This document shows, in pieces, positions 18,483 to 58,447 of a stretch of DNA of 64,000 nucleotides (position 1 is its first letter; the number at the start of each line of letters is the position of its first letter). Origin of the DNA: Desulfobacterales bacterium (GTDB lineage Bacteria > Desulfobacterota > Desulfobacteria > Desulfobacterales > JAAELO01); contig JAAELO010000047.1 of assembly GCA_024226555.1 (NCBI GenBank), positions 1 through 64,000 of the forward strand. Direction: 5' to 3'. The position numbers were made by a program, and so were the translations under genes. The notes beneath the pieces are model-generated. The model searched no databases. It was not told the DNA's origin and saw only the letters and a list, made by a program, of their open reading frames with translations.

Positions 18483-18552
18483 GCACCCGTTGTTCTTGAC
18501 TCTTATGTATTGTGCCTTCTATTCCTAAATCCCGGGAACAAGACAAAGATTA

Positions 18553-18682
18553 TGGCAGGTCTTCTGACTTTTGGCTAAACTTACTAACTGCGCCTTCCCA
18601 TTAATTATAACAGTGGCATTTACAGCTTTCATAACCAATTACAGCGGCGGGACCGTTCCCGATTTTCACGGGGATTCCCTTT
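18553..18682 (-). promoter_or_regulatory. cobalamin (AdoCbl-type) riboswitch
   Basis: Reading leftwards, the conserved core blocks appear in order: GGGAATCCCCGTGAAAATC, GGGAACGGTCCCGCCGCTGTAA, ATGCCACTG, GGGAAGGCGCAG, and finally AGTCAGAAGACCTGCC (the B12 box). All the invariant parts of the cobalamin aptamer are present. It should repress downstream transcription when cobalamin is abundant, through the terminator at 18436-18482. Confidence 0.95.
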
Positions 18683-18752
18683 TAATTTCATTCTATAAAA
18701 ACTGAAAAAATATTTTCGAGATAAGAATGAAACACCATAAACAATAGTAAAA

Positions 18753-18781
18753 AATCTATTAGAAATAAATGTCTGTGTCAA
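18753..18781 (-). promoter_or_regulatory. promoter of the cobalamin riboswitch transcript
   Basis: On the reverse strand: TTGACA (18781-18776), a 17-bp spacer, then TAGATT (18758-18753), placed about 70 bp upstream of the aptamer. The -35 is consensus and the -10 is weak. Confidence 0.55.
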
Positions 18782-18811: not shown

Positions 18812-18940
18812 GGGAACCTCTAATAATTAGGATTTTGATTGAAATACAAGGCTGAGAAAAAAACAACGGGTTGATTTTACTACAGTTAATTTTTTCAAAA
18901 ACGCAGTAGTTCGGTCAAAAGACAGTTCTTAGAGATTCCC
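18812..18940 (+). mobile_element. GGGAACC-family MITE
   Basis: Full-length 129-bp copy with exact AAAT duplications (18808-18811 and 18941-18944). Interior variant: ATACAAGGCTGAGAAAAAAAC and CAGTAGTTCGGTCAAAAGAC, the same sub-group as the copies at 50166 and 54041. Confidence 0.93.
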
Positions 18941-20492: not shown

Positions 20493-20623
20493 GGGAACCT
20501 CTAATAACTGCTCTTTTTGCGAAATACTTCGTTTTTACCAAAAAAAAACTGTTGTAAAGTCAGTTCGTTATTTTTTTGTCATGCCTTGTATTTCATCAAA
20601 AATTCTAATTATTAGAGGTTCCC
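20493..20623 (-). mobile_element. GGGAACC-family MITE
   Basis: Full-length 131-bp copy in reverse orientation with nearly perfect termini and exact TATA duplications (20489-20492 and 20624-20627). It sits upstream of the truncated ankyrin gene. Confidence 0.95.
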
Positions 20624-47458: not shown

Positions 47459-47850
47459 TGGGAAATTTGACTCCTTCGAAAGACCAATTAAACGAATTAA
47501 CAAATTCCAACTACAAAGGACCTGTTGTTATGGTCAATCTTTTGAAATTCAAAAGAGTTGATGGAAAGGCCAACGAAAGTTATAAGTCCTATCAGAAGTA
47601 TATGCACAAAACGGCCCCATTCCTTAAAAAAGTGAATGGTAAACTGATATATATTGGCGAACTTGCCCAGGTTTTTATTGGTGATGACAGTGATAATTGG
47701 GATCTTTGCTTATTAGTAAAGTACCCATCAGGTAAAGCATTTATAGAGATGATAACAGATCAGGAATATTTAAAAATACAGAATTATAGAGAGAATTCAC
47801 TTGAAAACTCTGCATTACTGGTAACAAAACCAACTATAGGGAACCTATAA
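47458..47850 (+). CDS. DUF1330-family protein, flanked on both sides by MITE ends
   Basis: 130 residues. PVVMVNLLKFKRVDGKAN and SYQKYMHKTAPFLKKVNGKLIYIG are the pattern of DUF1330 (dimeric alpha/beta barrel), followed by DLCLLVKYPSGKAFIEMITDQEYLKIQNYREN. Function of the family is unknown. The start lies at the end of a MITE terminus (47428-47458) with no clear RBS of its own, and the last codons (TIGNL) plus the stop are inside the element at 47839. The original protein probably ended near residue 125. Confidence 0.75.
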   Translation: MGNLTPSKDQLNELTNSNYKGPVVMVNLLKFKRVDGKANESYKSYQKYMHKTAPFLKKVNGKLIYIGELAQVFIGDDSDNWDLCLLVKYPSGKAFIEMITDQEYLKIQNYRENSLENSALLVTKPTIGNL

Positions 47851-47954
47851 TAATTAAAAGGCGGTTATTAGCGACTCCTCCAGAATAGATAATCTGGAAC
47901 CTAACTGCCTAATAACACATAATATATAAAAAGTGTTACTTAGAAGAGATTCCC
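47839..47954 (+). mobile_element. GGGAACC-family MITE, long-arm subtype
   Basis: 116-bp copy with exact TATA duplications (47835-47838 and 47955-47958). The termini are GGGAACCTATAATAATT and AAGAGATTCCC, but the interior is a different pair of hairpins (CCAGAATAGATAATCTGG; TAATAACAC...GTGTTACTTA). It is the best-preserved example of the subtype also seen at 1-45 and 46831-46910. Confidence 0.9.
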
Positions 47955-55126: not shown

Positions 55127-55255
55127 GGGAACCTCTAATAATTAGAATTTTTGATGAAAAACAAGGCATAACAAAAAACAACGAATTGATTTTACTACAG
55201 TTTTTTTTTGTTATAACGATGTGTTTCGCAAAAAGATCAGTTAGTAGAGATTCCC
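55127..55255 (+). mobile_element. GGGAACC-family MITE
   Basis: 129-bp copy with exact TAAT duplications (55123-55126 and 55256-55259). It ends 16 bp before the next start codon; the RBS AAGGAT lies just beyond the duplication. Confidence 0.95.
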
Positions 55256-57795: not shown

Positions 57796-58447
57796 ATGCA
57801 GAATAAAAAAAATAATTCAGAGACGGATAAAAATTTTGCAGCAGTATGTGGTCTGAATTGTGAGGCATGTACCCTATATATTGGTACAACAGAAGATCCC
57901 GATAGACTTAAGGGAACCTCTAATAACTGATCTTTTTGCGAAACACATCGTTATAACAAAAAAAAACTGTAGTAAAATCAATTCGTTGTTTTTTGTTATG
58001 CCTTGTTTTTCATCAAAAATTCTAATTATTAGAGGTTCCCTTAAGGAGATTGCCAAAAGATTTAAACTCCCAATCGAGGAGATGAAATGTTACGGTTGCA
58101 GATCAGATAAAAGAGGTCAATATTGCAAAGCATGTAAAATGTATGCCTGCGCTGTTGAAAAAGGAATTAATTTTTGTAGTGAATGCGATGAGTATCCATG
58201 CAGTGATATTAAACAGTTTCAATCTGAAAGACCTCACAGAATAGAACTTTGGGATAGCCTTTCAAGGATTAAAGAAGTTGGATATAAGAGCTGGTTAAAA
58301 GAAAACAGAGAAAACTATAAATGCCCTGAATGCAAGGTTATCAACTCAGCATATGATCTCAAATGTAGAAAATGTGGTGAAGAACCAAGCTGTGGTTATG
58401 TGTTAAAACATAAAGATGCGATTGTTGAGGTTTTGAAAAATCTATAA
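57796..58447 (+). pseudogene. DUF3795 (Cys-rich) gene interrupted by a MITE
   Basis: The 5' part (57796-57911, RBS AAGGAG) encodes 39 residues ending CGLNCEACTLYIGTTEDPDR, then LK. The 3' part (58045-58447) continues EIAKRFKLPIEEMKCYGCRS and so on, with many Cys pairs (CKACKMYAC, CSECDEYPC) and a C-terminal zinc-ribbon-like CPECKV...CRKCGEEPSC. Between them lies a 129-bp element with TTAA on both sides. Removing the element and one TTAA joins the parts in one frame (CTT AAG GAG). As it stands, translation ends at a TGA inside the element after 44 residues, so the gene is inactive. Confidence 0.93.
57912..58040 (-). mobile_element. GGGAACC-family MITE inserted in a gene
   Basis: 129-bp copy in reverse orientation, exact TTAA duplications (57908-57911 and 58041-58044), nearly perfect terminal inverted repeats. 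It is the best evidence in this window that the family moved recently, because the target gene is otherwise intact. Confidence 0.97.

Follow-up and report, generated by a model that had tools for sequence, protein, structure and literature searches.

A MITE, a non-autonomous DNA transposon presumably mobilised in trans, has almost certainly inserted at a CTTAAG site within a DUF3795 gene of this Desulfobacterales bacterium, splitting the gene and probably knocking it out. The locus lies in the window, meaning the whole 64-kb stretch of DNA analysed, where the element and the parts of its host gene are arranged as follows, together with the closest sibling copy that was found:

55127 to 55255, minus strand: closest sibling copy found, 98% identical (2/129 differences), with its own target site duplication (TSD), TAAT
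57796 to 57907, plus strand: 5' part of the DUF3795 gene, containing the first Cys cluster and reaching up to the first TTAA
57908 to 57911, plus strand: left TTAA copy of the target duplication, within CTTAAG (motif gaCTTAAG)
57912 to 58040, plus strand: MITE of 129 bp with no coding capacity of its own, bounded by 15-bp perfect terminal inverted repeats (TIRs), GGGAACCTCTAATAA
57912 to 57926, plus strand: left terminal inverted repeat, 15 bp, perfect
58026 to 58040, minus strand: right terminal inverted repeat, 15 bp, perfect
58041 to 58044, plus strand: right TTAA copy of the target duplication, adjoining the 3' end of the element
58041 to 58447, plus strand: 3' part of the DUF3795 gene with the remaining Cys clusters and a C-terminal zinc-ribbon-like part, its frame intact to the stop

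The proposal of the earlier note that a MITE interrupts a Cys-rich DUF3795 gene was borne out, since the 129-bp element with its perfect TIRs sits between the two gene halves. Read directly, the gene begins with the ATG at 57796, is split after codon 38, and continues after the second TTAA in a frame that stays open to the stop ending at 58447. The in silico excision that the earlier note described also held: without the element and one TTAA (133 bp), a single open frame of 172 amino acids results. This joined frame has one DUF3795 match (Pfam, cut-off 22.6 bits) of 67.7 bits (E 1.3e-18), spanning profile positions 2-82 of 83; taken separately, the halves score 21.2 bits (5', below the cut-off) and 44.4 bits (3').

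Relatives of the protein are encoded at 13 loci in named genomes. Failure of the joined protein to match its homologues across the junction had been set beforehand as a possible refutation; instead, ten independent uninterrupted homologues, 56-67% identical, align without gaps over the junction, where DPDRL meets KEIAKR. Cys18, Cys22, and Cys25 of the first Cys cluster are invariant in this alignment, and the host protein departs only once (Tyr to Asn) from columns invariant elsewhere, compared with one to five departures in the intact homologues. The joined match, the alignment, and the single departure together indicate that the insertion struck an intact gene, which has shown no visible decay since, in agreement with the earlier claim for both halves.

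The insertion probably disables this otherwise well-preserved gene. The 133 bp are not a multiple of three and shift the frame by one, and the 5' frame, read into the element, meets a stop at 57928-57930, leaving a 44-amino-acid ORF that ends at 57930. The frame shift and the stop within the element thus knock the gene out, with a probable loss of its function. Of the Cys clusters, the 5' fragment retains the first only, and this one is missing from the 3' fragment. The same genome also encodes several DUF3795 paralogues of greater divergence (about 26-37% identical), so the loss of the split gene may be tolerable. Alternatively, the element could be tolerated or even used, the 3' part being translated as a new, shortened protein either from an internal start or from the GTG at 57860, which is out of frame and opens a 195-amino-acid ORF that crosses the element. 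The element is indeed open in the ORF at 57860-58447 and the 3' half is undecayed, but the first conserved Cys cluster (Cys18, Cys22, Cys25) would be missing from such a product, its upstream part would be read out of frame, and promoter-like sites near the junction do not exceed chance, which makes this reading very unlikely beside a simple knockout.

The anatomy of the inserted element is that of a MITE: it is short and without a transposase gene, it carries TIRs and a target duplication of constant length, and it exists in many dispersed copies. Its outermost bases are GGGAACC from 57912 and GGTTCCC up to 58040, and on folding, its strand closes into an almost complete hairpin (-44.9 kcal/mol, z -10); no RNA family was matched at the locus in Rfam. 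Other paired family elements, up to about 270 bp long, are likewise non-coding and fall into size classes near 129, 160, 190, and 250 bp. From this anatomy, a DDE-type transposase probably acted in trans with a 4-bp stagger. In the proposed mechanism, the enzyme would recognise the GGGAACCTCTAATAA ends, cut a (C)TWWA(G) target with 4-bp staggered ends, and insert the element into the CTTAAG site inside the chromosomal DUF3795 gene, after which gap repair would produce the TTAA duplication. What the locus documents is insertion, which the earlier note offered as evidence of mobility; the frame was restored in silico, and no case of precise natural excision was seen.

Target preference was examined in a sample of 193 paired elements from 1.14 Mb of genome read. 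An exact 4-bp duplication is kept in 96 of 191 sampled copies; 37 of 75 paired elements carry one at the expected position, compared with 0-2 of about 76 (about 1%) at displaced offsets. The duplicated sequences among the 96 are TTAA (24), TATA (14), TTTA (13), TAAA (9), and others in smaller numbers, and the pooled consensus is the palindromic (C)TWWA(G) (91 sites; since both strands were combined, part of the symmetry is built in). Given this preference, the CTTAAG in the DUF3795 gene is a favoured site. The TTAA duplication read from this locus is therefore correct for the DUF3795 copy but does not extend to the family, whose rule is a 4-bp duplication of the TWWA type (TTAA, TATA, TTTA, TAAA, and others). 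With TTAA making up only 24 of 96 duplications, a piggyBac-like obligate TTAA target was excluded. The IS5 group of the IS5 family generates a 4-bp YTAR target duplication; it was rejected as a partner because TATA, TTTA, and TAAA duplications, which depart from YTAR, are common here and because PF13586 and PF05598 have no match in the genome.

Other candidate partners were sought among the transposase genes themselves. Pfam matches in the genome comprise PF01609 (six), PF07592 (two), PF13701 (two, below the cut-off), and PF13546 (one), and no family ends surround any of these genes on contigs over about 3 kb; the other transposases of the genome have their own ends, different from those of the MITE family. 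The ISAzo13 family produces target duplications of 0-4 bp, and it was dismissed in turn, as neither gene at the two PF07592 loci has a pair of matching ends. Clustering of solo ends across 1.14 Mb revealed no autonomous element, and long TIR pairs spaced 400-2,600 bp apart enclose ordinary genes, such as one for a methyl-accepting chemotaxis-like protein, with no recognisable transposase. Since the readable sequence consists of contigs over about 3 kb, a collapsed autonomous copy could sit on shorter ones. Separately, two PF01609 transposase genes (L034:106-2217 and L035:494-2851, open frames of 640 and 699 amino acids) are apparently enclosed by inverted repeats that begin with CCC, with TTAA on either side, and seem to belong to TTAA-targeting insertion sequences.

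The family to which the element belongs is very large. TIR-like sites number 42 within the window, against 0.68 expected. In the whole genome (7.69 Mb, 904 contigs), the exact 15-mer GGGAACCTCTAATAA termini occur 623 times (none for the reversed control), the exact 16-mer GGGAAYCTCTAATAAY termini 1,171 times, and GGRAHCTCTAATAA sites with up to two mismatches 3,210 times (533 for the control). The family thus amounts to at least about 600 element equivalents and, on a looser count, to roughly 1,300, or about 2% of the genome. Such abundance invites the suspicion of an assembly artefact, in which a repeat was misplaced between the gene halves or an insertion carried by a minority of a mixed population was assembled. 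The fragmentation of the genome into 904 contigs and the many hundreds of repeat copies, some at contig ends, lend themselves to this explanation, but a misjoin would link unrelated flanks, while here two in-register halves of one gene meet a perfect TSD; an artefact is accordingly considered highly improbable, and a genuine insertion is retained, which may be polymorphic within the population.

Across 388 other genomes of the order, the GGGAAYCTCTAATAAY termini were encountered at one site only, indicating that the expansion is lineage-specific. No relatives of the element were found in plasmids or phages. Exact TIR matches in viral contigs occur in 34 stretches with one match apiece, which by our own estimate lies within chance; no second TIR-like site (up to two mismatches) stands beside any of these 34, and the empty-site 22-mer has no match in viral contigs. 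The window also holds a second type of repeat, GGGAATCTCTTCTAAGTAACAC...GGAGTCGCTAATAA, at 47840-47954, with further, nearly identical copies at L180:4593, L179:472, L081:17001, and L184:88; this looks like a further MITE family, either related or nested. At L162:14192-14230, L169:3802, and L084:16511, MITE copies appear nested in or abutting other copies.

Family copies differ by 18% on average. Some 130-bp copies recur without any difference at six or more distinct loci (duplicates from overlapping loci were removed by coordinate), and these, together with the 98% identical sibling, indicate recent rounds of transposition. The sibling lies only 2.8 kb from the DUF3795 copy in inverse orientation; local hopping as a general pattern was nevertheless rejected, as neighbours among 109 copies were no more alike than shuffled ones. 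The DUF3795 insertion itself is probably recent as well, and the undecayed gene and the identical copies elsewhere uphold the recent activity suggested in the earlier note. The relatives found include no genome of the same genus or family that might carry the empty site. An old insertion kept by chance would be compatible with the 2 of 129 bases by which the element differs from its closest sibling, placing it outside the identical copies, but the host gene departs from invariant columns just once, within the range of intact homologues, and both TIRs and TSD are perfect, so that an old event is unlikely and a recent one preferred.

Among surviving copies, insertions into genes are rare and most copies are intergenic, the DUF3795 copy being among the few gene breakers. 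Removal restores a frame of at least 100 amino acids for only 8 of 95 copies with an exact duplication, and several of the eight look spurious; by contrast, 78% of randomly chosen positions in that DNA fall inside such frames. A second good case of gene interruption is the copy at window 20493-20623 (TSD TATA): the affected gene encodes ankyrin repeats, and the copy separates a likely signal peptide of 22 amino acids from the mature part; its removal yields a 135-amino-acid frame with ankyrin matches. Elsewhere in the window, a cobalamin riboswitch (18537-18754, minus strand; Rfam RF00174, 113.9 bits) adjoins a family copy at 18812-18940.

MITE insertion in or beside genes is known and ordinary in kind, while the family described here is unusually large. 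The Chunjie MITE of Geobacter uraniireducens is 235 bp long and present in 38 full and 57 partial copies, one in a phosphate-uptake operon and the other full-length copies intergenic (PMC10969869). Like Chunjie, the present family is non-coding with TIRs and direct repeats, but it differs, by description, in its range of 129-250 bp and its hundreds of copies. In Candidatus Thiomargarita nelsonii, a MITE with 10-bp direct repeats and a 19-bp TIR interrupts hupL, a gene with other lesions, and no parental IS was identified in ISfinder (PMC4853749). High copy number, an interrupted conserved gene, and the lack of a recognised parent are shared with that case; the 4-bp repeats, the 15-bp TIR, and the otherwise intact DUF3795 gene are not. 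ERIC and Correia elements are similarly abundant, mostly intergenic, and classed as MITEs (PMC10969869), and the highest count cited in a 2024 review is 711 ERIC copies in Photorhabdus luminescens (PMC10969869). Likened by description, ends and targets aside, the present family differs in its 1,171 exact termini and roughly 600 to 1,300 element equivalents.

A copy number comparable with, or exceeding, the 711 of ERIC is a more noteworthy feature than the interruption of a gene. It is possible, though doubtful, that few single MITE expansions on record for prokaryotes are larger, that this one is restricted to a single lineage, and that the transposase family behind it has yet to be connected with (C)TWWA(G) targets and GGGAAYCTCTAATAA ends. 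From the split gene, the exact ends of this very abundant family and its 4-bp duplication can be read off, which renders the boundaries of its other copies certain and provides a clear target for the transposase search.
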